A DNA stretch of 64,000 bases from a virus. Position 1 is the stretch's first letter; the number at the start of each line of letters is the position of its first letter. The notes under the pieces were generated by a model. That model worked only from the letters and a program-made list of their open reading frames with translations. It was not told the origin of the DNA and searched no databases. The translations under genes were made by a program, and so were the position numbers. The DNA lies in the IMG/VR virus record IMGVR_UViG_3300020177_001482, positions 24,898-88,897 of that record. One strand, given 5' to 3'. This document shows, one piece after another, positions 27,180 through 43,174 of the stretch.

Positions 27180-28470
27180 ATTTGCTCCTGCAAAAATCCC
27201 ATGTGTATGTTTGAAGTATGATGTCTTCATTATAATCACTTTCCTCAGTAAATTTTTTGCCATCTAAGGCACCTTTGGCTAACCATTCGTTTTTGGTTCC
27301 TAACCATTTTTTCAATCTATACTGTCCCTCCACCGTGGGTTTTTTGTTCTGCCATAAAACTAACTTGCATACTTCTCTGAAAGCATTTTTCCATGCAGTG
27401 TAATTATCGGGTGCCAACACAGTTTCGTTTGAAATAATCGGTACGACTTCGTGCGGTTGGGATAAAGTAAAGTCTAAGATATTATCATCTGGCGTTTCCA
27501 TGCACAGTGTTTTATTGTACAAGTTGATGTTGAAGGTTCCGTACGCAATATTCAACTCCTGTAAATGTGCATAGAATATCCTGTGCCTTTTTGTTAATGC
27601 CCTGTCAACAGTGTAATCAAACATGAAAGTTTCCTTGACCTTGCTCTTTGCAAAAACGGCATAAAAATATTCTGTGCTTGATGTGGTGGACGCTTGTTTG
27701 TATGCCTGTGTCCTACCGTCTACGTTTCGTATCCAATGCAGTTTGTTTTTCAAGTTATTACGATATATGTGATTTTTCAGTAAGTCATAATTTTCTTGTT
27801 CAAATGGTTCTCCGTTAGAAATAAAGCAAATGTCAAAACAGTCTTTTTTGTCCGGAGTGCCAATGTCGTATATGAAGGGATAGTCATATATCTGTGTTTT
27901 TATATGTGACAGTGACTTGCCTGGCAAATAGAAAGTATTTCCTGACCTGTATATCTTCAAGTCTTCCCAGTAAGATGGATAGAACAAACCAACGTCTGAG
28001 GTCTCTGAATATTTCATGTATCTTGCCATGGGTATTTTGAATGTTAATATGTTTTCCATAACGTTGGACAAATCATAGTCTTGCTCTAGGTAATCAAAAT
28101 CATAATCAAAATTGTGTGTATGATAATTCACATCTTTGTAATCACGCAGGAACTTTATGTCTTGGTCGGCAAATTGTTTAGGGAATAAGAACGTATCACC
28201 TTCCTGCTGTTGTTCATTTGCCCAAACGTGAACCTGGGTGGCTTGATGCTGTTCTGGAATGTAATCAAAATCAAAATCACTGTAATCAACTTTACTGCTC
28301 AACATCCACTGGTATTCTGTGTGTGCCTCTAGTAACATTCTCTTCGCTATATGGAAATAACTGTCAACAAACGGTATGACCACCGCATGGGGAAACACAG
28401 ACTTTATCACTGCTATATTGTTCCTGCTTTTACTATTTCCAAAATCTACTGCTACGCAATCAAACACCAT
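27145..28470 (-). CDS. Glycosyltransferase-like protein with apparently degenerate DxD
   Basis: A 441-residue protein. The central segment FDICFISNGEPFEQEN and IRNVDGRTQAYKQAS aligns by eye with the GT-A-like protein at 40122-41021 (VYISYKEPNKEQN and KRVDGVVGFDNAHKAA). Where that protein has VDGD, this one has VFAK, so the metal-binding DxD appears lost. The N-terminal part repeats a related pattern (TEYQWMLSSKVDYSDFDFD), suggesting two tandem domains. It may bind glycan without transferring it. It overlaps the aminotransferase gene by 11 bases. Confidence 0.6.
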   Translation of the reverse strand: MVFDCVAVDFGNSKSRNNIAVIKSVFPHAVVIPFVDSYFHIAKRMLLEAHTEYQWMLSSKVDYSDFDFDYIPEQHQATQVHVWANEQQQEGDTFLFPKQFADQDIKFLRDYKDVNYHTHNFDYDFDYLEQDYDLSNVMENILTFKIPMARYMKYSETSDVGLFYPSYWEDLKIYRSGNTFYLPGKSLSHIKTQIYDYPFIYDIGTPDKKDCFDICFISNGEPFEQENYDLLKNHIYRNNLKNKLHWIRNVDGRTQAYKQASTTSSTEYFYAVFAKSKVKETFMFDYTVDRALTKRHRIFYAHLQELNIAYGTFNINLYNKTLCMETPDDNILDFTLSQPHEVVPIISNETVLAPDNYTAWKNAFREVCKLVLWQNKKPTVEGQYRLKKWLGTKNEWLAKGALDGKKFTEESDYNEDIILQTYTWDFCRSKFKLLYPTEIFY

Positions 28471-29542
28471 AGTACTCCTTGATGGAATCGCAAACGTATA
28501 AAACCTCGTTCTTCTTAAGGAAAGGATGTATGGGCAACGAGATCACGTCCTGACAGAACTTTTCTGCATTTGGCATTTCCTGTCCTGTGTAAAACATCTT
28601 CATCCTTGCCATGGATTGTGGATAATGTATTTGCGTCTGTATACCTTTGCCATCCAGGAACGCTTTGAGTCCGTCCCTGTCCTGTGCCCGAATAACAAGT
28701 TTGTGATTATTTGAAACAGTGTACAGACTCGATTCTATAGAACTGATTCCTGCGTCGTCTAATTTCCTAGTGTACCACTGCCTAACCTTTTTTGATCTAG
28801 ACAACAATGACTTATACTTGGAAAGTAAAAAATTCAAAATGTTGGCATGGTCGTTGCTCAGGCATGAGTTGTATCCGTATTCTAACTTGCCCGTGCCTTT
28901 GCCGTGATATCGTAGGCTACGGATAAACTTCGCTTCGTCAATGTCATCTGTAAGTACCATCCCCCCGTTGCCAAAACAAGGCAATGGTTTGCTTGGGGCA
29001 AAACTGAGACTGCTTATGTCACCTAATTTGCCACTTGGTATTTTTTTGTAAAAACTTCCGAGGCTCTGTGCGGCATCCTCTATGAGAGGTATTTTGTGTT
29101 TGTCACAGTACTGTCTTAGCCTATCATAATCTGCAAGATTGCCAAATAGGTTCACGTACACTAATGCATCGGGTAAGATTGTGGCAGGTAGATTTGCGAT
29201 CAATCCTTTCCTGTCAACATCAACGAAAGTTATTGTCGCTCCGGTCCTTTTAATCGCTTCCGCTGTGGCTAGATAACTGACCGCTGGACACAGCACATTT
29301 GATCCTGGTCCTATTCCTTTGGCCATTAAAGAAAAATAAAGTGCGTCGGTGCCACTACCTACCGCTACTCCATAGTTTCTCTTTGTGAATTTTGCTACAG
29401 ACTTTTCAAATTTGTCTAGCCAAGATCCTGCTGTATGGCTACTACTAACAACATCGCCTGATCTCCAAACTTCTTTTGCCCTACGTGTGATTCTCCAACT
29501 GTAGGCATCATAGATCCTATCCACTCCACCAAACTTAATCAT
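28460..29542 (-). CDS. DegT/DnrJ/EryC1-type sugar aminotransferase
   Basis: A 360-residue PLP enzyme. VAVGSGTDALYFSL binds the cofactor phosphate, LIEDAAQSLGSFY contains the PLP-ring Asp, and SFAPSKPLPCFGNGGM holds the Schiff-base Lys. The family makes amino sugars from keto sugars. Translation is coupled to the preceding lipoprotein-like gene (TGATG). Carbamoyltransferase and acetyltransferase genes upstream suggest a decorated amino sugar. Confidence 0.93.
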   Translation of the reverse strand: MIKFGGVDRIYDAYSWRITRRAKEVWRSGDVVSSSHTAGSWLDKFEKSVAKFTKRNYGVAVGSGTDALYFSLMAKGIGPGSNVLCPAVSYLATAEAIKRTGATITFVDVDRKGLIANLPATILPDALVYVNLFGNLADYDRLRQYCDKHKIPLIEDAAQSLGSFYKKIPSGKLGDISSLSFAPSKPLPCFGNGGMVLTDDIDEAKFIRSLRYHGKGTGKLEYGYNSCLSNDHANILNFLLSKYKSLLSRSKKVRQWYTRKLDDAGISSIESSLYTVSNNHKLVIRAQDRDGLKAFLDGKGIQTQIHYPQSMARMKMFYTGQEMPNAEKFCQDVISLPIHPFLKKNEVLYVCDSIKEYYGV

Positions 29543-29691
29543 CAGAATTCTTTCTTAACACCAACATGTGGATTCTCCACGCAACTGTTGGTTATTTCTT
29601 TTATTGTCTCTTTGTTTAAATCTACGTCACAACTGGCACTGGGTTTGATCCCACAACCCACACACAACAATAGTATTATTAGATATTTCAT
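29542..29691 (-). CDS. Small lipoprotein-like protein (49 aa)
   Basis: A 49-residue frame between two enzymes, overlapping each by 1 to 4 bases. The N-terminus KYLIILLLCVGCG is a short signal peptide ending in a lipobox-like LCVGC, so it may be a lipid-anchored envelope protein. Three later Cys could form a disulfide. Confidence 0.6.
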   Translation of the reverse strand: MKYLIILLLCVGCGIKPSASCDVDLNKETIKEITNSCVENPHVGVKKEF

Positions 29692-31160
29692 CCCAGTACT
29701 CTCACTCCGTATTTGTTGGTAAACGCTCTACCATCCGCCCTGTCATTCACAATTGGTTGTCCCTTTATATTCAAACTGGTGTTCAAAAGTATGGGGCAAC
29801 CCGTCTGTTTTTTCCATTCCGTCAACAACGCATGGAACCCTGGATTATCCGTCTTACGCACCGTTTGAACCCTACTTGTGTGATCATGATGTATTATGGC
29901 AGGGAAGTCTTTACCATGCGTACACGCCGCTGTAAATTGCATATAAGGGGTGTTTTGAACTGCTTTAGGTAGCTCAAAATACTCGTTTACATCCTCCTCT
30001 AATATGGCCGGAGCGAACGGTCTGAACTTCTGTCTTTTCTTGATGCTGTTTACCAGATCCTTGATGTCCTCACCCCTGGGATCGGCCAACAGCGATCTAT
30101 TACCAAGTGCCCTAGGACCAAACTCCGCCCTGCCGCTGGCCACTCCCACCATCTTGTTTTCCTTCAATTCTTTAATCAGGCTGTCCACCGGATACTCGCC
30201 ATCTATCTCGTGTCCCAGGAATGGGTGTTGCCAATCAAGATGCTTTTTCTCATGTGCGGCTATACAGCCTAGGCTTGATCCTGCGTCACCTGGGTTTGGA
30301 ACAATCCATATGTTGTCAAACAATCCCATGTTGGCCAACACCCTGTTGGCGGCACAGTTCAATGCTACACCGCCTGCATACACAAGATTACGTGATCCAT
30401 ACTTGCTGGCCCTGTGCCATAATTCTGCAAGGCATTCTTCTGTGACTGCCTGTATGCTGGCGGCTATGTCCATCACATCTGCATTTGGCTCCCAGTCGCT
30501 CAATCCCCTGTGTAGATTCTTTTTCAGTTTGAAAGGTGTCTGATACACGAAATCATCATAGATCTTTTGTTTGTATTTTGGTGTTCCGTACGCGGCCATG
30601 CCCATCAGGATGTATTCCTCTTCCGCTGGCTTGAGTCCACATCGATGTGTGAAAGCACTGTACAGTATTCCTATGCTGTGCGGATAGTTTAGTGTTTCTT
30701 TTCTTTCAACCAAGGTCTTGTCTGCCGTTGATATCGATACAGTCTCCCATTCTCCTATTGCATCCACTGTCAGTATTGTTGCTCCTGTGTCCTTGAAAGG
30801 TGACGTGAAGTATCCTGCCGCGGCGTGTGAGTCGTGGTGTTTCACGTACTCATCTATCTTGATTCCAAAGTGATCCAAGTGCCATTGTGGCATCTCGGTG
30901 TAACTCATGGCCAATCCGTACTGTCCCGCGTAGAACTGTCTGGTCTTCTTCAACAGTGGTAGTTCGTAATACACTACCTTATCAAATGGCCCAAAAGTTT
31001 TGGCCTCGTCCACTATCTTTTGGTTAAGGTAGTGATCGTTCTTGACCTTACTATAACGTTCCGCATGTGCGGCCCACAATATCTCACCCGTGCCAGAACT
31101 GTAATCCACCACAGCCATGGCGGCATCGTGATTCATGCAGTTGATTCCTAATATCTTCAT
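29688..31160 (-). CDS. NodU/CmcH-type carbamoyltransferase
   Basis: A 490-residue enzyme of the carbamoyltransferase family, with an ASKHA-like N-terminal domain (GINCMNHDAAMAVV, VKHHDSHAAAGYF, ILTVDAIGEWET) and a YrdC-like C-terminal part (FGPRALGNRSLLADPR, RPFAPAILEED, NTSLNIKGQPIV). The family carbamoylates hydroxyls of sugars or antibiotics using carbamoyl phosphate. In a phage the acceptor may be a surface sugar or a modified base. Its start overlaps the upstream gene by 4 bases. Confidence 0.93.
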   Translation of the reverse strand: MKILGINCMNHDAAMAVVDYSSGTGEILWAAHAERYSKVKNDHYLNQKIVDEAKTFGPFDKVVYYELPLLKKTRQFYAGQYGLAMSYTEMPQWHLDHFGIKIDEYVKHHDSHAAAGYFTSPFKDTGATILTVDAIGEWETVSISTADKTLVERKETLNYPHSIGILYSAFTHRCGLKPAEEEYILMGMAAYGTPKYKQKIYDDFVYQTPFKLKKNLHRGLSDWEPNADVMDIAASIQAVTEECLAELWHRASKYGSRNLVYAGGVALNCAANRVLANMGLFDNIWIVPNPGDAGSSLGCIAAHEKKHLDWQHPFLGHEIDGEYPVDSLIKELKENKMVGVASGRAEFGPRALGNRSLLADPRGEDIKDLVNSIKKRQKFRPFAPAILEEDVNEYFELPKAVQNTPYMQFTAACTHGKDFPAIIHHDHTSRVQTVRKTDNPGFHALLTEWKKQTGCPILLNTSLNIKGQPIVNDRADGRAFTNKYGVRVLG

Positions 31161-31492
31161 CTACCTATTTCCCATCCTAACACCACACCATAGTTCTCTT
31201 CGCCGTTGTGCTTTTCATATGCTGGAGAGATGAAAAGTCCTCCTGCCTTGTATCTGATCATTGGCAGTACGTCCTCTAATTCATATCCCGTCACCAACCC
31301 TATTTCTAGAGTCCAGTATTCATCCAGCTCAAATTCTCTGCCAACGTATGTGCTGATCCTGTCCTCGGAGTTGTAATACACACCTGCTATATTGTCGTCC
31401 ACTGTGCACCTTGCGTGTGGATGAATGTTGTTGTAATCCGCTTCCAGACCAACATGCATTGACAGTGCCAAGAACAATCCTAAACAGTTCAT
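31157..31492 (-). CDS. Small exported beta-strand protein
   Basis: A 111-residue protein. The N-terminus CLGLFLALSMHVGLEA is a likely signal peptide. The rest alternates strands (RISTYVGREFELDEYWTLEI, GLVTGYELEDVLPMIRY) and ends in GVVLGWEIG, as in small outer-membrane barrels. The ATG at 31492 overlaps the upstream TGA (ATGA), so the longer in-frame start is rejected. It may alter the host envelope. Confidence 0.6.
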   Translation of the reverse strand: MNCLGLFLALSMHVGLEADYNNIHPHARCTVDDNIAGVYYNSEDRISTYVGREFELDEYWTLEIGLVTGYELEDVLPMIRYKAGGLFISPAYEKHNGEENYGVVLGWEIGR

Positions 31493-32046
31493 TTGATGTT
31501 GAACCATCCTTTCGCCCTGTCCCTGAACTTCTCCCATTCATTCAACTCTACGTCATACTCGAAATTCTGTGTTGTGAGGTTGACCTGCACTTCCTTGGCT
31601 CCGTTCTTGAGATGGAACTTACGTGCCATGTCCGTGAGAGGACTCAACGTGATCAACCTGTTGAGATGGTTTGATTGTTTGATCATCTTGTACACTTCAT
31701 TGACCATGTGCTTTCCGCCACCTTTCTTCTTGGCCCACACCGTGTAGGCTATCGCTATAGAACCCTGTTGTCCTGCCCTGTGTATCGCCTGCATGGCGGC
31801 GTCTTTACTCATTGTGTCCATCTCCTCCACGCTCTTAGGTATGCCATGTGTGAATGCGAAACACATTACAGCCGCTATGTCTCCCTCCTCGTCCTTGATT
31901 CCGTATATCTTCCTGCCGTATGCCTGTCTGAACTCCAGACTAAGTTCAGGTCGCACAGGATCTTCCGTGACATCTATGTACGGCAGTTCGATCAGTTCGA
32001 ACCGGGGCGTCTTTTCCAACGCTTTCTTAATTTTTTTGAGCACCAT
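31489..32046 (-). CDS. GNAT-like N-acetyltransferase
   Basis: A 185-residue protein. SIAIAYTVWAKKKGGGKHMV matches the GNAT core, where a strand is followed by a Gly-rich pyrophosphate loop (KKKGGGKHM), and LTDMARKFHLKNGAKE is the usual late helix and strand. The substrate is unknown; an amino sugar from the DegT step is a reasonable guess. A 34-residue gene lies just upstream. Confidence 0.65.
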   Translation of the reverse strand: MVLKKIKKALEKTPRFELIELPYIDVTEDPVRPELSLEFRQAYGRKIYGIKDEEGDIAAVMCFAFTHGIPKSVEEMDTMSKDAAMQAIHRAGQQGSIAIAYTVWAKKKGGGKHMVNEVYKMIKQSNHLNRLITLSPLTDMARKFHLKNGAKEVQVNLTTQNFEYDVELNEWEKFRDRAKGWFNIK

Positions 32047-32047
32047 C

Positions 32048-32152
32048 CTATTTGTATATGAATGGATCTTTCTTCTTTAACTCTTTGAGTCTCTTCCTGT
32101 ATTTGATCTCTTGCCGGATCTTGTTGATCAGATTCTTTATCCAAGTGAACAT
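32048..32152 (-). CDS. Tiny basic protein (34 aa)
   Basis: A 34-residue, Lys/Arg-rich helix (WIKNLINKIRQEIKYRKR). The ATG overlaps the upstream TAA (TAATG), and it stops just before the acetyltransferase start. It is probably translated by coupling. The function is unknown. Confidence 0.5.
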   Translation of the reverse strand: MFTWIKNLINKIRQEIKYRKRLKELKKKDPFIYK

Positions 32153-32946
32153 TATCTGTCTCCTATCAGTTTGTTAAAAGTTGGTAACATTAATTTTACA
32201 GCATCTTGGTGTGCCTCGTCAAGTGGATGTGTGGTGCCACGTGGATAGTCATTCAAAAGTGCCCATTGATTGAAACCCATCATCCTCTCTCCAAAACTAT
32301 ACCATTTGGTAAAATCAATCTCACCATGCAATGCCTTCATTAAAGGATCCTGGTCTTTGTGTTGTTTCAATTCGTCATAAAACAAGGTATTGTCTGCCAG
32401 TGTGAACATGTATGGTATTTGTTTCTTCTCCAGAATATTCTGCAACCAGATTATGCTCTTCCAACTGAGGTAGGTCTCATGGTACGGGTTGGCCGCATAT
32501 TTGTATATGGCCTCGGCAAAAGGTTTTACCCCAGATTCTAGCATGTTGTTTTGTCTGGTTTTCCATTGCTCCTGCTGTGTCTCTGATCCCTGTATAGTCC
32601 TGAATGCTTCCTCGTTTCCCCTTGTCGTGTCCCATGGTGAGATACTTGTCCACCTTGTGTCCTCTAACATTCCATTCATGGGCATGGCCCAATCATAACG
32701 TGAGAGAAAACTCCACATGACCAGCACACAATCAACGTCTCTGTTCTGTGACACCGCCTTGAATGTCCTACGAGCTATAGCACTGTTGCCTGCTCCACCA
32801 GACGCAGTGCATATGTAGTCATCGTGTGTTGCTTCTGTGAGCCTGTAGGCCCATGCCTTCTTGGATGGTGTCTTGCCGCCCACATCATCCGAGAGTTCAT
32901 TCCCTAGCGTGAAACTGCAACCTCCTATAATTACTTTCTTACTCAT
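32152..32946 (-). CDS. SGNH-hydrolase-like protein
   Basis: A 264-residue protein. IIGGCSFTLGNEL is an SGNH block I with the nucleophile Ser, and CTASGGAGNSAIARR holds the Gly and Asn blocks. DCVLVMWSFLSRYDW begins the third block, and a late THPLDEAHQDA supplies a candidate His. SGNH enzymes are esterases or O-acetyl-processing enzymes. It directly precedes (in transcription it follows) a radical SAM gene, with an 8-base overlap. Confidence 0.7.
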   Translation of the reverse strand: MSKKVIIGGCSFTLGNELSDDVGGKTPSKKAWAYRLTEATHDDYICTASGGAGNSAIARRTFKAVSQNRDVDCVLVMWSFLSRYDWAMPMNGMLEDTRWTSISPWDTTRGNEEAFRTIQGSETQQEQWKTRQNNMLESGVKPFAEAIYKYAANPYHETYLSWKSIIWLQNILEKKQIPYMFTLADNTLFYDELKQHKDQDPLMKALHGEIDFTKWYSFGERMMGFNQWALLNDYPRGTTHPLDEAHQDAVKLMLPTFNKLIGDR

Positions 32947-34120
32947 ATATCCTCAGTATGTTATTTAAAAGTGGAAACATGTCTCCAAAATTTTCCTTCC
33001 GGTACTTGTCTGTCTGTAATATCCTCGCTTTACGTTGTTCTCTGATCTCTGGTGTGTCCCTATCAGCGGCGTTCATGAAACGTATGCTGGGCTGATAATC
33101 AGTCAGCATGTGATACCTGTCTGTAACTATGTCCTTGACCTGTCGTGGCAGTGTTTGAATATTAAACACATCTGGATCAAAGCAAGTGTTTACGTAAAAA
33201 AAATTGGGTTGAAACTGTGCCACCCATAACGCTATCTTGGCCCAGTTAAACACATTGAATATTGATACTGTTGAACATATCTGGAAGTCCATGTTAGGTG
33301 TTTTCATTTCTTTGAACTTGACAAGATTTCCATTTACCTCCCTCCAATTGGCAGGATGCCTCTGGTATTCGAAAGGTTCTCCAACGTCATCGATGCTGAA
33401 CGCTACTTCTACGTGTTTAAAATAACTCCAAAGATCGAAAATATCTTGCGGTGGCAACTGTGTACCGTTAGTGTTATAATGAATGTCAATGTTCCTTGCA
33501 TATCCCTTTTCAACACAATGCATCAGGATCTTAAAGTGATCCTTAATCATGAACGGTTCTCCGCCCGTGAATTCGAAGTACTCAACATGCTTGAGATCAT
33601 CCTGCAACTCCTCGAAGAACTGTGGATTGCGTTTTGGCCATCCACCTTCCTTGAGTTGCATCCTTGCTAGTGGGTTATCTCCACCCTTGGCCGTCTCATA
33701 ATCTATTTCCTCCTGTGCCCACTTGCTGGAACTCCAGGAACCGCATATCCTACACTTTAAATTACACACGTTGCCTAACTTAAAATCAATAAATTTCAGC
33801 GTTGGCTCGTTATTAGGTGTCCAGTCTGTAAGACTAGTCTTCATCTTGTACAGTGAATTTTGTCTTTTACTTGTCTTTCCTGCATTTTCTTCTTGCCAAC
33901 AACTTTGACACCCTTTAGGACGTTCACCGTTACGGAACTGCTCACGTAAATTTTCCATATATGCATTGTCTTGAATTGACTTAAGACTCTGTTCGAACAC
34001 TTTGACATCAGGTACACTTCCTTTGTATAGACAGCATGGAGATGCTCCACCGTTAACATCAACCTCAAGATGTGTCCAAGGTAGCGGACACACATTTGAT
34101 TTTATATACTTGTCCACCAT
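32939..34120 (-). CDS. Radical SAM protein A with N-terminal SPASM-like region
   Basis: A 393-residue protein. The N-terminal region has the SPASM-like order Cys11 (VCPLPWTH), Cys29-Cys30 (GGASPCCLY) and Cys71/Cys74 (GCQSCW). It is followed by the radical SAM CxxxCxxC at Cys119, Cys123 and Cys126 (GNVCNLKCRICG). FEFTGGEPFM is the SAM-binding GGEP motif. SPASM normally follows the core; here it comes first. The C-terminus carries YRKENFGDMFP, a motif shared with the other four paralogues. The substrate is unknown. It overlaps paralogue B by 19 bases. Confidence 0.85.
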   Translation of the reverse strand: MVDKYIKSNVCPLPWTHLEVDVNGGASPCCLYKGSVPDVKVFEQSLKSIQDNAYMENLREQFRNGERPKGCQSCWQEENAGKTSKRQNSLYKMKTSLTDWTPNNEPTLKFIDFKLGNVCNLKCRICGSWSSSKWAQEEIDYETAKGGDNPLARMQLKEGGWPKRNPQFFEELQDDLKHVEYFEFTGGEPFMIKDHFKILMHCVEKGYARNIDIHYNTNGTQLPPQDIFDLWSYFKHVEVAFSIDDVGEPFEYQRHPANWREVNGNLVKFKEMKTPNMDFQICSTVSIFNVFNWAKIALWVAQFQPNFFYVNTCFDPDVFNIQTLPRQVKDIVTDRYHMLTDYQPSIRFMNAADRDTPEIREQRKARILQTDKYRKENFGDMFPLLNNILRIYE

Positions 34121-35442
34121 TCGAATGCTCTCTTGTTATTTTGTAAGATTTTAGTTATGTCTGTTCCCCTTATCCTGTCTAACCTTTCGATTTCTGCTTT
34201 GCCTTTTTTTTGTCCTTCTATGTATTTCTCTTTATCGTACACATATTCGTTGTTTCTCTTCTGCTTTTGCATTTCGTCCAACTGTGAAAAAAAATTCCTT
34301 AAATTTTTATTTTTATACTTGATAGTTTTTTCTCTCACATCATCAATAATCTCAGACATTATGTCATATGGCATGAACAATGGTGCTATGGCATTATCAT
34401 GTGAGAAATTGAATACTTGTTTTGTCAATAATTCTATCCCTAGGTCGTTGCTTAGGTGAACCATGTTTTCAAGGTCAAAAAGTCCAGGCAGTGTTATAGT
34501 GAGGTCCAACTGCATACGTTTGTAATCGTGGTTATTGTCACAAAACTGTAGACCGTATTTGATGTTGTCCAACCATTCATTATACTTGAGACCTGTTCTA
34601 ATATATTCTCCAATCTCACCTGTGCCGTCTATAGATGCACATATCTGGAATTTTGGGAAATACTTTAGTAAGTCATCAAAAAGATTCTTGCCATAAAAAT
34701 TTATCCTACTCATGTTAGAATTGTATCTCGCTAACACCTTGTCTGCATATCCTAGTTCCTTAATTCTTTCCATTGCTGTCCAATGTATTTTCCACATCAG
34801 AGGTTCGCCTCCACACCAGTACAATTCAGTAATTCTTTTTTGTTCTACTGCTTCTACAAATTCTTTAACAATCTGTTGATCATGAAACTTTTGCAACTTC
34901 TCTTTGATATCTTTTCTACCCCATATCCTATAGTGTTCATAATCGCCTTTTCCGTGTTTTTTATTCTCGGTCTCCCATGTGCTTGATAACATGTCTCCAC
35001 ACATTCTACAACTGAAGTTGCAAAGGTTAGAGAACCTATAATCAAAACTTTCAACTTTCATCGTTGTTACACCTGTGGCGTCTGTGCTGTCAAATGCTTC
35101 GTTGATTTTGTTTTTATACAACCAATTGAAATGTTGTCTGTATACTTGTTCATTCAACAATTTGTAATTGCACACAGCACATTGAGGTATCTCCTCACCT
35201 GCTAACAGTTTAAGCCTTACACTTTTCATGTAGTCCGAGTTCCAATGTTGTTCCAAAGTCGTAAGATTCAATTTATCGTTATGACCTTTTGGATCAATAG
35301 TATCAATATACTGCTTGAAGTTTTCACTAGATTCACGTGAACTACAACACAACCTACGCTCCATTTGTGGCGACAAGTATGTGTGTGTCCATGGAGCCAT
35401 GCAAAAAGTCTTGTTTCCTTCGTTTGGTTTAATCCTTTTCAT
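34102..35442 (-). CDS. Radical SAM protein B with N-terminal SPASM-like region
   Basis: A 446-residue paralogue of A. TFCMAPWTHTYLSP, RRLCCSSRE and PQCAVCN form the N-terminal Cys region. Radical SAM Cys141, Cys145 and Cys148 lie in FSNLCNFSCRMCG, followed by YWCGGEPLM. The ATG at 35442 is chosen because GGAG lies 5 bases upstream; the longer frame starts at 35484. The gene is more AT-rich than its relatives E and D, hinting at a separate origin. It ends in a variant of the shared C-terminal motif (LDRIRGTDI). Confidence 0.85.
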   Translation of the reverse strand: MKRIKPNEGNKTFCMAPWTHTYLSPQMERRLCCSSRESSENFKQYIDTIDPKGHNDKLNLTTLEQHWNSDYMKSVRLKLLAGEEIPQCAVCNYKLLNEQVYRQHFNWLYKNKINEAFDSTDATGVTTMKVESFDYRFSNLCNFSCRMCGDMLSSTWETENKKHGKGDYEHYRIWGRKDIKEKLQKFHDQQIVKEFVEAVEQKRITELYWCGGEPLMWKIHWTAMERIKELGYADKVLARYNSNMSRINFYGKNLFDDLLKYFPKFQICASIDGTGEIGEYIRTGLKYNEWLDNIKYGLQFCDNNHDYKRMQLDLTITLPGLFDLENMVHLSNDLGIELLTKQVFNFSHDNAIAPLFMPYDIMSEIIDDVREKTIKYKNKNLRNFFSQLDEMQKQKRNNEYVYDKEKYIEGQKKGKAEIERLDRIRGTDITKILQNNKRAFEWWTSI

Positions 35443-36712
35443 ATAACTCCGTGAGTTCTGGGAATACATCGAGAATATTTTCATCCCTGATCACATCCAA
35501 TTTATTCATTGCTTGTCTGAACTGTGGCAGGTCTTTACTGTTGTCCCTTCTCATCATGTAATCTATGCCTGATTCAAATCCTTTGGTTGCCCTAGTGAGA
35601 CTATCTAGAGGACGTAACCATTCAATATGTTTTTGATACTTTTCTTTCACCTTGTCTTTGAACGTTTCAGGCAACAGGTCAATTCTTTGTGCATAAGGAA
35701 ACTGTAACAAATTGAAGTTAAAATCCTGTGGTTTTAGCAATCCTTGATCTACCCAATTTCTATGGAAGTCAGGAATGTGTAGGGCATTTATAAGTCCAAC
35801 TGTAGAACTGATATAAAAGTCAACCTGTGGGCACACCTCTAACATCCTCTTTCTGTTAGCAACAATATCATTCCACACAGTTCCTTTACGCATGAACTCT
35901 CCACGTTTGCCTTCTGCATCTAGGCTGGCACCTATTGACACGGAATCAAACTTATTCCAAAGTTCAAGTACATCTATGTCCTTAAATTTTGTTTTAGTAA
36001 AATTCGTGTTGTAAATTAATCTTACGTGGTACATTTTACGCTTGTCTAATTCTTTCAATATCCTATAGTGCTCTTCCATTATTATTGGTTCACCACCAGC
36101 AAAATAAAATTGTTCTACATGCTCAAACTGATCTAACATCTGTTCCCATATGTCGTCACTGCTCCGTCCCACTTTCATTATCTTTGCATGGTTAGGAGGA
36201 GAACCTGTGAGTTTCTTGTGGTCTTCATACCAGTTACTACTGAACCATGTTCCGCAACTCCTACAGGCCAGGTTACATAGGTTACTAAATCTTATATCCC
36301 AATACTTGATAACAAAATCTGCTGTGCCGTCTGCCTGTGTGTTTTCAACCATTCCAATATTGTGTCCGAAGTGTTTGTTAGAGCTCAGTCGCAGGCTAAA
36401 AAATCCTGACTTCTCTTGGTCGTAACATTTAGAACAGTGTTTGCTGGCCTTGTTTGCCAGCATGTTCTTTCTGATGCCTTTCATCTCCTCGTTGTTGAAT
36501 ACTTCTGCCATGGAATTCTTGTTGAGATCACCTACTGGATATTTGTCCAATGCAAAACAACAAGGATACGCTCTACCGTCAGGGAAAGCATGTATGTGCA
36601 ACCATGGCATCATACAGAACGTGTCACTGTCTATCAACAACCCCTTTTCTTTGGACGTCATGTCTTTGATCTTTAGTTTCTCGGGCTCTTTGGCCCCATA
36701 ATCATAGGCCAC
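35429..36712 (-). CDS. Radical SAM protein C with N-terminal SPASM-like region
   Basis: A 427-residue paralogue. Cys33 lies in TFCMMPWLHIHAFPDG, Cys51-Cys52 in AYPCCFA, and Cys93/Cys96 in HCSKC, all before the core. The core has Cys146, Cys150 and Cys153 in FSNLCNLACRSCG, then FYFAGGEPIIM. This is the clearest SPASM-like spacing of the five (CxxxPW...DG..YPCC...CxxC). The C-terminus ends ENILDVFPELTELY. It overlaps D by 11 bases and B by 14 bases. Confidence 0.87.
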   Translation of the reverse strand: MAYDYGAKEPEKLKIKDMTSKEKGLLIDSDTFCMMPWLHIHAFPDGRAYPCCFALDKYPVGDLNKNSMAEVFNNEEMKGIRKNMLANKASKHCSKCYDQEKSGFFSLRLSSNKHFGHNIGMVENTQADGTADFVIKYWDIRFSNLCNLACRSCGTWFSSNWYEDHKKLTGSPPNHAKIMKVGRSSDDIWEQMLDQFEHVEQFYFAGGEPIIMEEHYRILKELDKRKMYHVRLIYNTNFTKTKFKDIDVLELWNKFDSVSIGASLDAEGKRGEFMRKGTVWNDIVANRKRMLEVCPQVDFYISSTVGLINALHIPDFHRNWVDQGLLKPQDFNFNLLQFPYAQRIDLLPETFKDKVKEKYQKHIEWLRPLDSLTRATKGFESGIDYMMRRDNSKDLPQFRQAMNKLDVIRDENILDVFPELTELYEKD

Positions 36713-38045
36713 GGTACCACTCTCCTATAATTGGGAAAGTCTTTTCAAAGTCCTTGCCTGATCGTTTGTCGTACTGACTGTAGAATTCCTTGAAGTCTTT
36801 CTGTAGTTTGCTCTGTTCGGCCGCATCCGCATGCGGTGTTTTCACAACATCAAGGTAGTCGATTAATCTCTGTGTTTGATCTATTTCCATGCTCTCCAAC
36901 CATCTGTTATTATTAGTTAAGAACTTTACCAAACCACCCTTAAATTTATTTCTAAGTTCATCTGGCAGTACAAGGGGTGACTGAAAACTAGGGAACCGCA
37001 ATATATTGAGTGTGAAATTGATTGTTGGTCCGTATACTTTGCTCGCACTCTTGAACCAAACCATCTTCTCTAAAAACTCAGGCAGTGTTTCTAAACACAA
37101 AGCATTTATGGTTGCCATGTTGTGTATTTCAGAAGGTACTTTGTCCACCATCATGTGTAAAAGGTTAGAATGCCATGTTCCAAAGTCCAATCCATCTCTG
37201 ATGTATTCTGCCTGTTGAAACGTTGCTTCGCAACTTGTGTACAAATGAAAGTTCTTGAACCCTTTCAGTTTCGTTTTGAATCTATCTATAATGCTTTGTT
37301 TCGCTCCTAGATTAGAGTTGATAGCAATACGCATGTCTGGGTTTATTTTGTCCCCCTGTGTTTCTATCCAATCCAACAACCTCCATAAGTTAGGAGACAT
37401 CATTGGCTCTCCACCCGTGATCCTTAATTCATCCAAACTCTTGTGCAGATCCGATTCCCACCACTTGTAGAATGCCTCGATGTATGGATTTGTCTCGTCC
37501 TTTTTATATGGTTCCGCTGAATCGTGTGCATGGGTGAAATGGTTACGTCCGTCTGACTTCAATCCTGTGTATGGCCCTTGTCTTTTGATGTTGTTTGCCC
37601 ACGTAGAACTGAATTGAGGATTACAATACGTACAGGCAAAATTACATGTCCTGTCAAATGCAATCTCAAGTGTTTTCAAATTAACATTATCCTTATAAGG
37701 TGATTCATATGCATTTTGTAGATCATCATTGGTGAATATCTTAGATTTATATACCCTGTCGCTTATGTTGTCTCTGCCAACATCTTCTATCTTCCAGCAG
37801 TACTCACATCCTGCAGGCCTCTCACCACACTGCATCTGTCTTCGTTGTTCTTTCTTTTGTCTTGTGTTGTGTATCGCACTTGGGTTTGTTTTTATCTCTT
37901 CGAGGTCAATCTTGTGTGGTAGTGGATGATGACAACTTGTGGTCATTCCACTGCCTAACCATATTGTAGCATTATACCACTTGGCTCCACAGAAACTTGC
38001 ACTCTTTGGATCTAGTATTTGTTTTTTATATTCAAGATCGTCCAT
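36702..38045 (-). CDS. Radical SAM protein D, variant N-terminal Cys region
   Basis: A 447-residue paralogue. The N-terminal region is a variant: SFCGAKWYNATIWL, TSCHHPLPHKI and GCEYCW replace the CxxPW and CC forms, pairing it with E. Radical SAM Cys134, Cys138 and Cys141 lie in RTCNFACTYCN, and LRITGGEPMM follows. The C-terminus has YDKRSGKDFEKTFP. It overlaps the SGNH-like gene upstream by 14 bases. Confidence 0.87.
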   Translation of the reverse strand: MDDLEYKKQILDPKSASFCGAKWYNATIWLGSGMTTSCHHPLPHKIDLEEIKTNPSAIHNTRQKKEQRRQMQCGERPAGCEYCWKIEDVGRDNISDRVYKSKIFTNDDLQNAYESPYKDNVNLKTLEIAFDRTCNFACTYCNPQFSSTWANNIKRQGPYTGLKSDGRNHFTHAHDSAEPYKKDETNPYIEAFYKWWESDLHKSLDELRITGGEPMMSPNLWRLLDWIETQGDKINPDMRIAINSNLGAKQSIIDRFKTKLKGFKNFHLYTSCEATFQQAEYIRDGLDFGTWHSNLLHMMVDKVPSEIHNMATINALCLETLPEFLEKMVWFKSASKVYGPTINFTLNILRFPSFQSPLVLPDELRNKFKGGLVKFLTNNNRWLESMEIDQTQRLIDYLDVVKTPHADAAEQSKLQKDFKEFYSQYDKRSGKDFEKTFPIIGEWYRGL

Positions 38046-38772
38046 CTTTTCCTTTGAAGTAGTCTTTTAACTTGTTGTATTCGTCTGTAGGACAAAGTAT
38101 TTCACTCCTAAACATAATGTCCTTGACCCAGTGGTAGTGTGCTATTGGCGGAGGGTGTGATTCGCCTGGCATGTAGTATTCTTTATAATTATCTTGCCCA
38201 AATTCCCACAATCCTTTTTTGTCTTCATAAAAAATAAACTTTGTCCAGTCTATGTGATTGTACAAAGTTTGTTCACTATTACTGTGGAAATTATGATTTA
38301 TGACATTCTTGTTGAACACCATCATTGTGTATGGTATTCTTTTCTTATCAAGGAATAGTTGTGTCCTTAAAATATGTTCAAGTGTTCTATAACTTTGATG
38401 CTGTTCATTCCAAAAATGTCGTCTAAAATAATCATGCTTGTCGGCAAGTCTATGTCCTCCGAACCAAGTGCTCCATTTGAAATCATCATCCCAGACACGA
38501 TAGGTTATACGTCCATCTAAATTATCGACGCCTTCGTCGAGAGTTATCACCTCATACCTGTCGGCTCCGGACCACATAATGTACATGTGTGCGATTTCCC
38601 TGTGTTTCATTGCACTGTTGATCACTGCCCTTGATATTGTTTCGTTCCCGCTGGCCGATCTGCCCTTGTTGAGCATGTGTGACCCACCGTCGAACCATGG
38701 GATAAATTTAGGCCAGCAATCCCATTTGAATCTTGTGAAACTGCAACCGTGTGCAACTGTAATATCAGGCAT
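38032..38772 (-). CDS. SGNH-hydrolase-like protein
   Basis: A 246-residue relative of the protein at 32152. The start VAHGCSFTRFKWD contains the GCSFT block I, RSASGNETISRAV supplies the Gly/Asn block, and a late ESHPPPIAHYHW gives candidate catalytic His residues. It lies between radical SAM genes D and E, with overlaps of 14 and 8 bases, so the two enzyme types probably act in one pathway. Confidence 0.68.
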   Translation of the reverse strand: MPDITVAHGCSFTRFKWDCWPKFIPWFDGGSHMLNKGRSASGNETISRAVINSAMKHREIAHMYIMWSGADRYEVITLDEGVDNLDGRITYRVWDDDFKWSTWFGGHRLADKHDYFRRHFWNEQHQSYRTLEHILRTQLFLDKKRIPYTMMVFNKNVINHNFHSNSEQTLYNHIDWTKFIFYEDKKGLWEFGQDNYKEYYMPGESHPPPIAHYHWVKDIMFRSEILCPTDEYNKLKDYFKGKDGRS

Positions 38773-40135
38773 TCATACACTCCTTCCAAAATTCTTCCAT
38801 TTCAGGGAACGTGTTCAAGAACCTAGTAGAACGCCTGCGATCGTGTTCGTTAAAAAAAGCGTAAAAGTTTTTTTTATTTTGCGTACTTTCGTCCGCGTTT
38901 TCGCGCCAGTATGCGAGATTCCTCTGCATCTTTTGTATCTCGAAGTCCTTGAATATGTGTAACCCGTTCGACTCGCCGGAATTTAACTGCATGTACTTTA
39001 TATTATCTTCATGTATTGCCTGATACGACTCTGGTAGCAGTGTGATCTGTTGCCATGCGGGTTGACGTAGCAGTGGCACATCGAACCACACCCTCTGGTA
39101 TGTCTTCGAGTACTTGGTACGTAGTTCCAATATCTTCTCCAGCAGTTTGTCCATGCTTGTTATACTGAGGTTGTTGTAAGTGCATATGAACGTTATTGAA
39201 TTTCGACCTGGTATCCTGTCCAAGAACTCCTCCACATTGTCCATCATGCGGTCAAATTCCAGACCGTCACGTATGTACTCAGCACGTTCGCCGAATGCGT
39301 CAACACTCACGAACTGCATCATGTGTTCCACCTTCTCCTGCATACATATTTCATGTGCCATGTTGAAGTACTTCTCCTTCAACTTCTTGTCCGGAGGACA
39401 CATATTGCTAGTGACGTTTAGATGCAGGTCTTTTTTAGGGTGGTCCATTATGTATTGGAACACTTTGTAAGTGTTCTTGTCCATCATGGGTTCTCCACCG
39501 GTCATACGGAAGTGCTTTAGATTCTTGTACAGTGTTGGCCACCATCTCCAGAAAGCGGTCACGTAGGGGTTGTCCTCCCTGTTGGGTATGGGCCTACGCC
39601 TGCCCTGGAAGTGTTCTGGTGCGTTGTGGGGAGGGGTGGTAGGATATTCGCCGTATCTGTCCACCTCCTTGGCCCACGTTGTCGAGAACTGTGGTGAACA
39701 ATAACTGCACTTGAAGTTACAAGCGTTGTTGAAGTTCACCTCAACATATCTCGGCGTCCAACGTTCGTCTATTGGATTCTTTCTGATGTCATCAAAGTCC
39801 TGCATTGCCCATGGCTCTCCGGACCTGTAGTGCCTGTCACTCATCTCCCCGGTCTTCTCAATGTTCCAGCAGTATGAACAACCGTCCGGTTGCTGTCCTT
39901 GGAGCATCTGTTGTCGCTGTTGCAGTTTTTCCTGTGTGTTGTGCAATGCCGCGGGATTTGAATTCAATTGGTCGGCGTCTATCTCGTGCAGTGGCGGATG
40001 GTAGCACGAGTTCGTAAGTCCCGTGGGTAGGTGCAGTGACGTCTGGTTCCACTTTGCCAGACACATGGTCGGGGAAACTTCTTGCAGTCTATCCTTGACT
40101 TTCAAGGCGTCTGCTTTGTAATCACTGGTACTCAC
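38765..40135 (-). CDS. Radical SAM protein E, variant N-terminal Cys region
   Basis: A 456-residue paralogue closest to D by pattern: TMCLAKWNQTSLHL, NSCYHPPLHEI and GCSYCW precede the core. Radical SAM Cys139, Cys143 and Cys146 are in NNACNFKCSYCS, and FRMTGGEPMMD follows. The C-terminus has NEHDRRRSTRFLNTFPEM. D and E form one subgroup; A, B and C form another. Confidence 0.87.
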   Translation of the reverse strand: MSTSDYKADALKVKDRLQEVSPTMCLAKWNQTSLHLPTGLTNSCYHPPLHEIDADQLNSNPAALHNTQEKLQQRQQMLQGQQPDGCSYCWNIEKTGEMSDRHYRSGEPWAMQDFDDIRKNPIDERWTPRYVEVNFNNACNFKCSYCSPQFSTTWAKEVDRYGEYPTTPPHNAPEHFQGRRRPIPNREDNPYVTAFWRWWPTLYKNLKHFRMTGGEPMMDKNTYKVFQYIMDHPKKDLHLNVTSNMCPPDKKLKEKYFNMAHEICMQEKVEHMMQFVSVDAFGERAEYIRDGLEFDRMMDNVEEFLDRIPGRNSITFICTYNNLSITSMDKLLEKILELRTKYSKTYQRVWFDVPLLRQPAWQQITLLPESYQAIHEDNIKYMQLNSGESNGLHIFKDFEIQKMQRNLAYWRENADESTQNKKNFYAFFNEHDRRRSTRFLNTFPEMEEFWKECMNA

Positions 40136-41021
40136 GATCTTGCACTCCCTTGTTAATGTGTTGTGGCATTATAAATCTGTAGAACTTGCTGTCATCCTCG
40201 CAATACTCTGCTATAGGTATGTCCAGTTGTTGTCTTAGGCTGTTACCAAACAAATGTAACTGGTCATCTATGTTTTCTATATCCACTTGATTGAAATAAT
40301 TTTGCATCTCATCAAGATCCCTTATCTTGAAAAATTCATTATTGGGTTCAAGCACAGTGTAGAAACAACCCATCCTCGCACCCAGCATAGCATATTTGCC
40401 ATTGTCTATGTCCGCCCCTATTGTACACCAAGTGCTTAACATTTTTAAATTTTGTCTCCAAATGGACTTAGAATAGTTTTTGGCTGTAATAGGTTTTCCC
40501 TTGTCAGTACTCATCTTGACACCTTCCCTGTAGCCTGCCACAAACGCCTGTTGTGGTGTTGCATTTATGACTGTCGTGGAATAGCAGTTGTGCAGATTCT
40601 CGTGTGGCACTCCCCAGCAGAAATCTATCTGGTTTTCTTCGGTGTCAGCGTTTTCGTGTGTTCGCATGTTTAGGCAAGTGTCTTTAGACCAACCAACCAA
40701 TCCTCCATTGCCGTACACCAACCCATTTATGTTGTTCCTTGCTCTCCACCTGTGTACTGCTTTCTTGTTTGTCTTGTTCCAATCCAGTGTCTCCAAAAGG
40801 AATCTTTCATCTATGATGTTGTCACCGTCGACGCTTATGAAGAAATCGGTCTCCGCCACGTCTGCCGCGGCCTTGTGTGCGTTGTCAAAACCCACCACGC
40901 CGTCAACACGCTTGACCCAGGGCACCTTGTTCTTGAGGTCCGCCCAGTTCTGTTCTTTGTTGGGCTCCTTGTAACTGATGTACACGAAATCGAGGTCGCT
41001 TATTCTCGTTCTATCTGCCAT
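40122..41021 (-). CDS. GT-A-like glycosyltransferase
   Basis: A 299-residue protein. LDFVYISYKEPNKEQNW begins a GT-A fold, and TDFFISVDGDNIID contains the DxD-type metal site. GLVYGNGGLVGWSK resembles the acceptor loop. The substrate is not evident. It is homologous by pattern to the protein at 27145-28470, which has lost the DxD. It overlaps the small gene upstream by 22 bases and radical SAM gene E by 14 bases. Confidence 0.72.
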   Translation of the reverse strand: MADRTRISDLDFVYISYKEPNKEQNWADLKNKVPWVKRVDGVVGFDNAHKAAADVAETDFFISVDGDNIIDERFLLETLDWNKTNKKAVHRWRARNNINGLVYGNGGLVGWSKDTCLNMRTHENADTEENQIDFCWGVPHENLHNCYSTTVINATPQQAFVAGYREGVKMSTDKGKPITAKNYSKSIWRQNLKMLSTWCTIGADIDNGKYAMLGARMGCFYTVLEPNNEFFKIRDLDEMQNYFNQVDIENIDDQLHLFGNSLRQQLDIPIAEYCEDDSKFYRFIMPQHINKGVQDREYQ

Positions 41022-41302
41022 GTGACTCCCCCTTCCCCTATGTTGTTAGGCCAGTGTATGTCGCCGTCCTGGAAGAAATAACCTTTGCTTGACTTTTTCA
41101 ATGTCCTATACTGTGTCTTTGGATTTAGCGTGGGTTTGACCACAATCTCACCATCCCGCAACATGAGGTTCTGCTCGCCGTACTGTCGTGCCCACAATTT
41201 CTTGGCATGGGTAACCTCATGCTGTTGGCCTTCGACTGTCACAAAAAACTTCTTTGGTGCACGTTTTGGCATTTTTTTCAGTGCATCAAATAATCCTGGC
41301 AT
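41000..41302 (-). CDS. Small hypothetical protein
   Basis: A 100-residue basic protein containing KRAPKKFFVTVEGQQHEVTH and ending in a beta-rich DGDIHWPNNIGEGGV. The ATG at 41302 is set by AAGGAG 5 bases upstream; longer in-frame starts at 41317 and 41341 are rejected. The function is unknown. Confidence 0.6.
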   Translation of the reverse strand: MPGLFDALKKMPKRAPKKFFVTVEGQQHEVTHAKKLWARQYGEQNLMLRDGEIVVKPTLNPKTQYRTLKKSSKGYFFQDGDIHWPNNIGEGGVTWQIERE

Positions 41303-42080
41303 GTAACTCCTTGTCATGATAGTGCCACAGCCTGCTGACACGTGTCTCTCCGATGTACACGGAATCTCCCGTGCGGTTTGGGTACAGGTATTCGTTCTGA
41401 TCCTTGGTTCTCATGGTGCCGTTTACCCCAGGCTTGTGGTGTATGAATTTGAACCAATCATAATCAATCAACTCTTTAGCAGTGGGATCCATAATTCTGT
41501 GTGCCAAGGCAAAAACAACGTCTGTGCTGGGATATCTGTCATGGCAAGAGATCAACATTTCAGTTTTGACCTTTTCCCAATTCTTGACTATATGTTCTGC
41601 TATCTCATAGAACCTCTGTGCTTTCGCACTCTTACGGAAGTACATCAGACCATTGTAGATGTTGGGCAAGTGATTCCTTGTGAACAATTTCCTATATGGT
41701 GTCTGTTTCACCACATTGCCTCTATAGTCAAAACAGTTGACACTGAACACTAAATCGTGTTGCCACAAGTGATACCACCACCAATCCGTGTTGATCGTCC
41801 ATAACATGTCTGCTTCTAATTTTATCGTATGGGTAAAAGGTGTGATACGAAACGCCTTGTACTCGTTGGCCCACTTGATTTCATGCGAAGCACTGTCGTC
41901 TTGTCTCATCATTTTTACGACATCCACGTGTTGATTTTCGAATTTGCTTTTCTCGTCCGTGACCACACATATCTGATTGTCTCTGTTCCAACGCTTGATG
42001 CTCTTGGCCAAGGTTATAGACAGTTCAACGTAGTCAGTCTTGTCGTTGTTCTGTGCGAACCAAAGGAATCCCCTAGACAT
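41286..42080 (-). CDS. Glycosyltransferase, GT-A-like
   Basis: A 264-residue protein. WFAQNNDKTDYVELSITLAK and NQICVVTDEKSKF resemble the N-terminal strands of GT8/GT-A-type enzymes. TIKLEADMLW supplies an E-x-D metal-site candidate. LPNIYNGLMYFRKSAKA is the usual asparagine-bearing acceptor strand. The donor sugar is unknown. It overlaps the gene upstream by 8 bases. Confidence 0.62.
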   Translation of the reverse strand: MSRGFLWFAQNNDKTDYVELSITLAKSIKRWNRDNQICVVTDEKSKFENQHVDVVKMMRQDDSASHEIKWANEYKAFRITPFTHTIKLEADMLWTINTDWWWYHLWQHDLVFSVNCFDYRGNVVKQTPYRKLFTRNHLPNIYNGLMYFRKSAKAQRFYEIAEHIVKNWEKVKTEMLISCHDRYPSTDVVFALAHRIMDPTAKELIDYDWFKFIHHKPGVNGTMRTKDQNEYLYPNRTGDSVYIGETRVSRLWHYHDKELHARII

Positions 42081-42825
42081 TGGCTATCTCCTTGTTTAAT
42101 ACATGCACATCTTGGTCTTTGACAAATGAAATCTGATCTTTGTACCGCCAGGCCAGGCCGTTGTCGGTCATTTCGATGATTTCACAATCACGTGGCAGTG
42201 TTGGCAGTGCGAATGGCATCTTCTCATATCCCATGAATCCGTTGACCTGTTGCAGTGCCATCGCAAACAGGTAATCATTACGCAGGTTCCTAGCGTATAT
42301 CCTGTACATCTCCCTGAAGTAACTGTAGTTCTCCTTGATGTATTTCACGGTGTCAAATATCTTCCTGACCTTTTCGTTCTTCTTGAACAGTAGCAAAGTG
42401 GCCCACACCATGGGTATCATACTCCACCTTCTCTGATCAAAACTGTCTCTGCCTGTCAAGTCGTGTGCCGTGCCTGGTACCAGGAAATCATATTCAGTGT
42501 CAAACAAGTTTTTCAAATTATCAGAGAAACAGAAGTAGTCAATGTCCATGACCAATGTTGTGTCGTATGGGGACAATTCATAGGACATGTGCCTGTCCAC
42601 ATTGTTCCAGGGTTCACCATTCAATTTGTTGCCCAATTCTGGCTCTATGAACTTGTACTCTATGAAACCTAGGGGACTCATCCTGCTGAAGGTTTCAAAG
42701 TTGGTGACCACCGTTATGTTTTTCGAGATGTTTTTCTTGACCAATCGGACACAACGTTCCAGGATCTTGTGATACCTTGTGTGTTCCGTGTCAAAACAGA
42801 ATAGCAATACTCCTTGCGTCATCAT
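42073..42825 (-). CDS. Glycosyltransferase, GT-A-like
   Basis: A 250-residue relative of the previous protein. KNITVVTNFETFSR is the first strand region, and TTLVMDIDYFCFSD holds a DxD metal site (DID). WATLLLFKKNEKVRKIF matches the later helix. Three transferases of this group in 3 kb indicate a multi-step glycan. Confidence 0.65.
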   Translation of the reverse strand: MMTQGVLLFCFDTEHTRYHKILERCVRLVKKNISKNITVVTNFETFSRMSPLGFIEYKFIEPELGNKLNGEPWNNVDRHMSYELSPYDTTLVMDIDYFCFSDNLKNLFDTEYDFLVPGTAHDLTGRDSFDQRRWSMIPMVWATLLLFKKNEKVRKIFDTVKYIKENYSYFREMYRIYARNLRNDYLFAMALQQVNGFMGYEKMPFALPTLPRDCEIIEMTDNGLAWRYKDQISFVKDQDVHVLNKEIANV

Positions 42826-43139
42826 TCACCTTTTCTTGTAAAAGTTTCGTACATCTGGTGATATGCGTTCAAGGCCTCCTGGTTCCGTTCAATCAGTGTT
42901 TTCAAAAAATCATCAGCGTCCTTGATCTCTACTGGATTGTTGTTTGTGTCCAGTATGAAAAATTTACCGTTATTTTCCTTCAGTGTCCTAACTATGCATA
43001 TGGTCTGGGCGTCCGCACGGAACAGATTGCCGTTGTACGCCAACACCTGTCGTGCGTGTGCCTTCTCCAGAGCGTTGCGTTTGGCGACCGCTATATCATA
43101 AGATAGGTCTGATTGTTTTTTGAGTTCGCGAATATCCAT
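42822..43139 (-). CDS. Hypothetical protein from a leaderless promoter
   Basis: A 105-residue protein. The first half is helical and charged (DIRELKKQSDLSYDIAVAKR), and the second half has FFILDTNNNPVEIKDADDFL. The ATG at 43139 is the base where transcription is predicted to begin. The in-frame TTG at 43154 lies in the spacer before the -10 box and is rejected. It overlaps the glycosyltransferase start by 4 bases. Confidence 0.6.
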   Translation of the reverse strand: MDIRELKKQSDLSYDIAVAKRNALEKAHARQVLAYNGNLFRADAQTICIVRTLKENNGKFFILDTNNNPVEIKDADDFLKTLIERNQEALNAYHQMYETFTRKGE

Positions 43140-43145
43140 ACCACA

Positions 43146-43174
43146 ATTATACAATAATTATGGTGGTATAGCAA
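43146..43174 (-). promoter_or_regulatory. sigma70-like promoter, predicted leaderless (- strand)
   Basis: On the - strand: TTGCTA (43174-43169), a 17-base spacer, TATAAT (43151-43146), then exactly 6 bases to the ATG at 43139. It is the only strong promoter seen ahead of the island from 43.1 to 27.1 kb. Confidence 0.75.

Follow-up and report, generated by a model that had tools for sequence, protein, structure and literature searches.

Five radical SAM paralogs with an N-terminal twitch domain form a conserved cassette with glycosyltransferase genes beside the tail genes of a probable jumbo-phage fragment

We analysed a 64,000-nucleotide stretch of viral DNA, hereafter the window, from IMG/VR record IMGVR_UViG_3300020177_001482 (positions 24,898 to 88,897 of 88,897 bases), in which five paralogous genes for radical S-adenosylmethionine (SAM) proteins, designated A to E, lie with glycosyltransferase genes beside the tail genes (Table 1). 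A preliminary description, read from the letters, had reported these five paralogs, and this was borne out: all are intact minus-strand open reading frames (ORFs), although the positions it took as starts are 3' ends. All five match the NCBIfam model NF033640 (N_Twi_rSAM) along their full length at 297.5-420.1 bits, the curated cut-off being 170 bits. The profile check against Pfam that it had proposed agrees, since Radical_SAM (PF04055) matches all five, over the gathering score in A only, and SPASM matches the N-termini of A and C. The assignment of A-E to the radical SAM enzyme class is near certain. Among related phages, pN/pS for A-E is 0.07-0.12, so that all five are under purifying selection and are real genes. 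Because of the overlap with the neighbouring gene, the true start of B is probably 35442 rather than 35484.

The sequence motifs follow the same order in every paralog. CxxPW or CxxKW (CPLPW, CMAPW, CMMPW, CGAKW and CLAKW from A to E) is followed by a second cysteine motif (CC in A-C, CHHP in D and CYHP in E), by CxxC (CQSC, CAVC, CSKC, CEYC and CSYC), and then by the core CxxxCxxC and GGEP. This is the series described earlier, except that the Trp placed after CxxC is found in A, D and E only. The ending D..R...F..FP was read directly in A, C, D and E, with a variant form in B, as reported. A, B, D and E share 20-28% identity with C, and the five constitute deep clades.

Table 1 Features of the cassette and its neighbours in the window. 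Loci, number of the 52 full-length viral loci in which the gene occurs.
Feature	Coordinates	Strand	Loci	Evidence
A, radical SAM paralog	32939..34120	-	52	NF033640 359.7 bits; Pfam SPASM 11-75, Radical_SAM; own clade with L149:11208-12422
B, radical SAM paralog	34102..35484	-	52	NF033640 306 bits; clade with L149:7401-8756, 100/100
C, radical SAM paralog	35429..36712	-	52	NF033640 420 bits (420.1); Pfam SPASM 33-97; AlphaFold2 model (see text)
D, radical SAM paralog (CxxKW, CHHP form)	36702..38045	-	52	NF033640 297.5 bits; clade with L149:6040-7404 and 14346-15716
E, radical SAM paralog (CxxKW, CYHP form)	38765..40135	-	52	NF033640 328 bits; clade with L149:12859-14337
S1, SGNH-hydrolase-like (GGCSFT ... 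HPLDxAH)	32152..32946	-	46	SGNH by motif only
S2, second SGNH-like, between D and E, optional	38032..38772	-	13	Weak DUF6071
G1, GT-A-like glycosyltransferase, constant radical SAM partner	40122..41021	-	52	AlphaFold2 pLDDT 92.1
h1, small protein between G1 and G2	41000..41341	-	37	
G2, glycogenin-like GT8 glycosyltransferase	41286..42080	-	52	Profile against PDB: glycogenin-1, E 3e-5
G3, relative of G2	42073..42825	-	52	
h2, small conserved protein	42822..43154	-	50	Homolog in bacterial cluster L197
T1, Ser/Thr-rich (24%), adjoins tail genes, candidate acceptor	44150..45103	-	50	Homolog L197:13389-14315
T2, tail-fibre-like	45108..46736	-		PHROG tail fibre and virion matches; Pfam Peptidase_G2 IMC
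CT, NodU/Nol-like O-carbamoyltransferase	29688..31160	-	51	Pfam Carbam_trans_N and _C; phrog_1601
AT, DegT/DnrJ/EryC1 sugar aminotransferase	28460..29542	-	36	Pfam DegT 1e-73
X, homolog fused to G1-like domain	27145..28470	-	47	
N, small, faintly acetyltransferase-like	31489..32046	-	27	phrog_1758 only, E 0.09

The region ahead of the core was then considered in an alignment of 87 paralogs and orthologs. The core CxxxCxxC cysteines and GGEP are present in 87/87, and the four N-terminal cysteines are conserved in 86, 86, 86 and 84 sequences, which is the conservation that had been set as a test of this region. Their spacing is C-x18-C-x(26-58)-C-x2-C, with 18 and 2 invariant; an extra C51 occurs in 57 sequences, with Ser at that position in 26. 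With a profile of this domain only, BtrN was the sole match above noise among all PDB chains (E 0.002-0.003), all four cysteines pairing with the four of the BtrN C-terminal twitch domain, and the full-length profile matched BtrN too (residues 17-90). The BtrN twitch holds its cluster by four cysteines, whereas SPASM is a seven-cysteine motif for two clusters (PMC6231123). Because four conserved cysteines align with the four cluster cysteines of BtrN, the N-terminal region of A-E is, judging from the alignment, a twitch domain with one auxiliary cluster. The suspected SPASM-like region does precede the core, but a seven-cysteine SPASM identity is ruled out, the alignment having four conserved cysteines only. 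The other marks of a twitch (Cys before a beta-hairpin, Cys after it, and CxxC after a helix) are present.

Since the auxiliary domain is C-terminal in characterised enzymes (PMC9012708), the N-terminal twitch of A-E is a genuine domain rearrangement relative to them. The permutation proposed earlier therefore stands as a difference in order, but it is not new, as NCBI already names it N_Twi_rSAM. An AlphaFold2 model of C built with the 87-sequence alignment reached a pLDDT of 93.8 and a pTM of 0.91, so that the model predicts with confidence how twitch and core lie relative to each other, consistent with the anticipated packing of the cysteine region near the core. A Foldseek search of the PDB with the whole chain returned CteB, anSME, BlsE and viperin, aligned mainly over the core with TM at most 0.36; because the aligner is sequential, this search is uninformative on the permutation. 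Among open-licence papers, we found none on an N-terminal SPASM or twitch with the words searched.

Compared with solved enzymes, the closest likeness is to BtrN, the 2-deoxy-scyllo-inosamine dehydrogenase (4M7S/4M7T), by analogy with which a fully ligated auxiliary cluster would be expected in A-E; unlike A-E, however, BtrN carries the twitch at its C-terminus and acts as a single enzyme for an aminocyclitol antibiotic. CteB, SkfB, anSME and SuiB have the nearest solved core folds and likewise combine a radical SAM core with an auxiliary cluster, but their auxiliary domain is C-terminal, with two clusters in the SPASM members and an RRE domain in CteB, SkfB and SuiB. Neither an RRE, nor a second auxiliary cluster motif, nor a C-terminal auxiliary domain was found in A-E by the NCBIfam and Pfam scans and the alignment. 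NF033640 has the domain order and cysteines of A-E; its name gives no substrate, and the block of five with G1-G3 and T1 lies outside its definition.

We then turned to the conservation of the cassette across viruses, for which loci were gathered by way of the C or A-E alignments. The metagenome search that had been recommended, a scan of IMG/VR, found 398 relatives, of which the best 80 were taken; 52 of the viral loci are full-length, at 20 kb or more. All five genes are present on one strand in each of these 52, within 6.4-11.5 kb, in the order E-D-C-B-A in 39 loci and E-D-C-A-B in 13; the view of the five as a unit, in phage DNA, is upheld. At 90% identity the C proteins from 85 sequences form 46 clusters, and at 70% they form 9. 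As the loci are related by descent, the counts measure conservation and do not amount to independent repeats. Neighbouring genes from S1 through h2 overlap by 4-56 bases in the window; beyond h2 come H3, T1 and T2, spaced 4-35 bases apart. Transmembrane-like stretches are absent from the cassette proteins, whose KD19 maximum is 1.5 against 2.3-2.4 in two membrane controls. A C gene at 73-91% identity was also seen on contigs labelled as metagenome-assembled genomes (MAGs) of Verrucomicrobia, Betaproteobacteria, Pelagibacter, Rickettsiales and Flavobacterium (L144-L148); these are probably mis-binned phage contigs.

Contigs of cellular genomes were searched with the C-ortholog alignment only, and cellular relatives are therefore under-sampled. 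On L149, a MAG contig of Bacteriovoracaceae, N_Twi_rSAM genes stand in tandem, and their neighbours read as obgE-, rsfS- and lgt-like. In a careful tree, A, B, D and E are each joined by a gene of L149, every such group being set apart from the rest by a branch with support of 100/99 or 100/100; a further L149 gene adjoins the phage C group alongside a gene of another bacterium. Because each paralog has its own bacterial counterpart, the trees indicate that A-E are five ancient lineages; recent local duplication is ruled out. Of the two subgroups earlier thought to imply duplication, the D+E clade was recovered, in a wider quick tree as well, and the duplications proved to be ancient. Two L149 D copies nest within phage D (92/89), suggesting that genes have moved between the phages and the L149 lineage.

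In the class Bacteriovoracia, 63 of 129 genomes have proteins above the NF033640 cut-off, with up to 13 copies. G1 occurs in nine of the 129, all nine being N_Twi_rSAM carriers, against 64 carriers among the 129 in this comparison (P = 0.0013), and mostly lies within 5 kb of an N_Twi_rSAM gene. Downstream of pheS/pheT in another Bacteriovoracia genome, L197, the phage order recurs as T1-h2-G3-G2-small ORF-G1-rSAM-rSAM (rSAM, radical SAM gene), T1 through G1 occupying L197:13389-17800; the stretch read contains no further structural gene of a phage. The T1 homolog there aligns along its length and keeps the FFNxGG and RTG motifs. A second conserved neighbourhood was seen in this class (L190:8873-12640, L191, L192 and L196), in which a C-like gene is flanked by two radical SAM proteins outside NF033640, often with a G1 homolog or a PP-loop ATPase (QueC/Asn-synthase-like). 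Some cellular homologs adjoin glycosyltransferases or a flippase-like gene, and single-copy ones lie near glycan or polyketide-like genes. A single N_Twi_rSAM gene of Paenibacillus (L151:10004-11296) has ketosynthase-, acyl-carrier- and phosphopantetheinyl-transferase-like neighbours, hinting that some members may have a non-sugar substrate. Vibrio phage K566 interleaves five N_Twi_rSAM-like genes with two GT8 genes and one GT4-like gene; its glycosyltransferases did not match the G1-G3 profiles, and its pairing with GT8 is apparently independent.

Regarding the partners, G1 has an invariant DGDN, and the nearest PDB folds of its model are nearly all GT-A glycosyltransferases (SunS, TarP, TarS and RmlT; TM about 0.3); a bacterial homolog is fused to a Pfam Glycos_transf_2 (GT2) domain. 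Its single-sequence family scan had no match, and its PDB profile search gave chance matches only. The single-sequence Pfam scan of G2 gave no GT8 match and the PDB profile search with G3 had none, while the L197 homologs of G2 and G3 each match both the G2 and the G3 profiles. S1 had no Pfam or PDB profile match, and h1 none in the family scans. One 815-aa protein (L209:6378-8825) matches both the X and the G1 profiles, and this fusion suggests that X itself is glycosyltransferase-like. H3 (43185-44114), between h2 and T1, occurs in very few loci and by eye resembles a 2-oxoglutarate hydroxylase (HxD ... H). The Peptidase_G2 match of T2 (IMC self-cleaving chaperone) lies near its C-terminus, and upstream of the tail-fibre genes a 3845-aa ORF with a TTG start (52360-63897) encodes a giant tail-associated protein.

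The closest relatives of the DNA polymerase in the window are those of the jumbo phages Phosso and Atu_ph07 (46-51%), and the window is therefore probably a jumbo-phage fragment; one syntenic related contig is 354 kb long. A pelagimyophage identity, raised by the literature on host-recognition clusters, found no support in this polymerase. The belief that five such enzymes are unusual in a phage was overturned for this lineage, in which five or more are usual: nine related contigs of 118-354 kb have 6-12 N_Twi_rSAM matches each, some below the cut-off. A paper of 2017 had moreover described 12 radical SAM genes in a marine T4-like genome (PMC5332604). On a related 138-kb contig, extra N_Twi_rSAM genes (L206 18421-19593; L207 1966-3120, 5280-6416, 9309-10487 and 18291-19448) are inserted singly after a DpdA-like gene, a peroxiredoxin gene, a short-chain dehydrogenase/reductase (SDR) gene and an IMPDH-like gene, at junctions where the window has none, as if such genes were mobile. 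Among isolated phages, C and A match two Vibrio phages only (A also weakly matches one single-cell marine contig), and E, T1 and G1 have no matches.

Taking these results together, we tentatively propose, at somewhat less than an even chance, that the cassette, as part of the tail operon, encodes a soluble pathway in which a virion protein is glycosylated and the sugar or glycopeptide is remodelled by oxidation, each radical SAM enzyme taking a different step. We infer the cluster chemistry, the glycan substrate, the virion target and the order of steps as follows. G2/G3 and G1 would assemble a glycan on a protein of the phage, T1 or a tail fibre being the likeliest. Each of A-E, acting sequentially or as a complex, would use its core cluster (C146/C150/C153 in C) to generate a 5'-deoxyadenosyl radical and would abstract hydrogen. 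The electron would pass to the auxiliary [4Fe-4S] cluster, fully ligated by the twitch cysteines (C33, C52, C93 and C96). Because a fully ligated cluster can accept an electron, for which BtrN and anSME are the precedent (PMC6231123, PMC9012708), net oxidation as in BtrN would be expected. The enzymes might act on the sugars or glycopeptide by oxidation, desaturation, epimerisation or cross-linking, and the carbamoyltransferase, the aminotransferase and the SGNH esterase would act last. A virion target is preferred to the host envelope because the cassette is continuous with the tail genes and has no membrane glycan-export gene. T1 is the best candidate acceptor because the non-enzymatic partners that recur beside the set on a bacterial chromosome are T1 and the small h2.

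Several points weigh against this proposal. The nearest folds and core sequences include the peptide-modifying CteB, anSME and SkfB; the L149 genome has no G1, so the radical SAM set can work without it; S1 and S2 are without family support; the fold match of the G1 model is weak; T1 is a putative virion protein by its position and composition; and the viral loci, sharing descent, are not independent tests.

A distinct, if unlikely, alternative is that the cassette remodels a surface glycan of the infected host, O-antigen or capsule, and so prevents superinfection or renewed binding to the receptor. Glycosyltransferases, a DegT aminotransferase, an SDR and a carbamoyltransferase are typical of O-antigen loci, the glycosyltransferase and flippase-like neighbours of some cellular homologs fit as well, and PMC7029224 proposes such a role for the GT8 glycosyltransferases of pelagimyophages, whose host-recognition cluster it notes to contain radical SAM cassettes as well. 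However, the cassette has no flippase, polymerase, lipid-carrier or other membrane-protein gene, and it runs into tail genes, not replication genes. We consider it rather improbable that the radical SAM enzymes modify a polypeptide such as T1 or a fibre, by epimerisation, thioether formation or C-C cross-links, with glycosylation as a separate decoration. The peptide-modifying enzymes among the core profile and fold neighbours, and the company T1 keeps with the set in bacteria, would suit this, but the Pfam and NCBIfam scans reported no RRE/PqqD-like domain, T1 has one Cys, no short precursor-like peptide was seen in the block, and single-copy cellular homologs lie near glycan or polyketide-like genes.

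Phage glycosyltransferases can act on DNA, and the opposite strand of the window holds an apparent deazaguanine DNA-modification set by sequence reading (DpdA/TGT-like, QueD-like, FolE, YhhQ-like transporter and QueE-like; 4213-5661, 6600-7332, 10926-11639, 13877-14485 and 15107-16006). A joint role in making a hypermodified nucleotide for phage DNA could draw on the QueE, FolE, QueD and DpdA-like genes at 4.2-16 kb; we hold it very unlikely, since the radical SAM set sits apart from them with the tail genes, and the bacterial chromosomes carry the set with glycosyltransferase and T1 genes and no deazaguanine cluster in the stretches read. Least credible is the notion of five interchangeable, recently amplified copies without division of labour. 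It would accord with membership of one family and with additional copies scattered elsewhere in related genomes, but every full locus holds all five deep clades, each with a bacterial counterpart, purifying selection acts on all five, and recency is refuted by the tree.

As for precedents, the pelagimyophage host recognition cluster noted in 2020 is likewise a myophage island with GT8 and radical SAM cassettes among structural genes; its phages differ from the window, whose polymerase is nearest to jumbo phages, and the excerpts of that paper do not describe five paralogs or a fixed order (PMC7029224). In mycobacteriophages, phage-encoded glycosyltransferases decorate capsid and tail proteins (Freeman 2023, as summarised in PMC12619734), and the moraphage paper that gives this summary does not mention radical SAM. 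The cassette here resembles the mycobacteriophage system in its phage-encoded glycosyltransferases and adds five radical SAM enzymes, a carbamoyltransferase and an aminotransferase. To our knowledge, no radical SAM enzymes take part in mycobacteriophage virion glycosylation, and we know of no substrate for the N-terminal-twitch family. In the open papers searched we found no account of the block of five lineages, of the synteny that links it with G1-G3 and T1, or of its occurrence in Bacteriovoracia; the enzyme family is already known and the cassette seems undescribed.

Radical SAM enzymes perform chemistry beyond that of ordinary enzymes, and members of the N_Twi_rSAM family are found in many phages as well as in roughly every second Bacteriovoracia genome that was searched. 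As a bolder and doubtful extension, A-E might be a portable radical pathway for an unprecedented oxidised or cross-linked virion glycan, passed between marine jumbo phages and the predatory Bacteriovoracia; in the latter it would decorate a T1-related surface protein. With its five radical SAM enzymes, its three glycosyltransferases and T1 as a small candidate acceptor, the fixed block offers a setting in which the question of substrate can be tested. Should the virion prove to be the target, marine phages would be devoting some 7 kb, and for each enzyme two iron-sulfur clusters, to the decoration of their particles.

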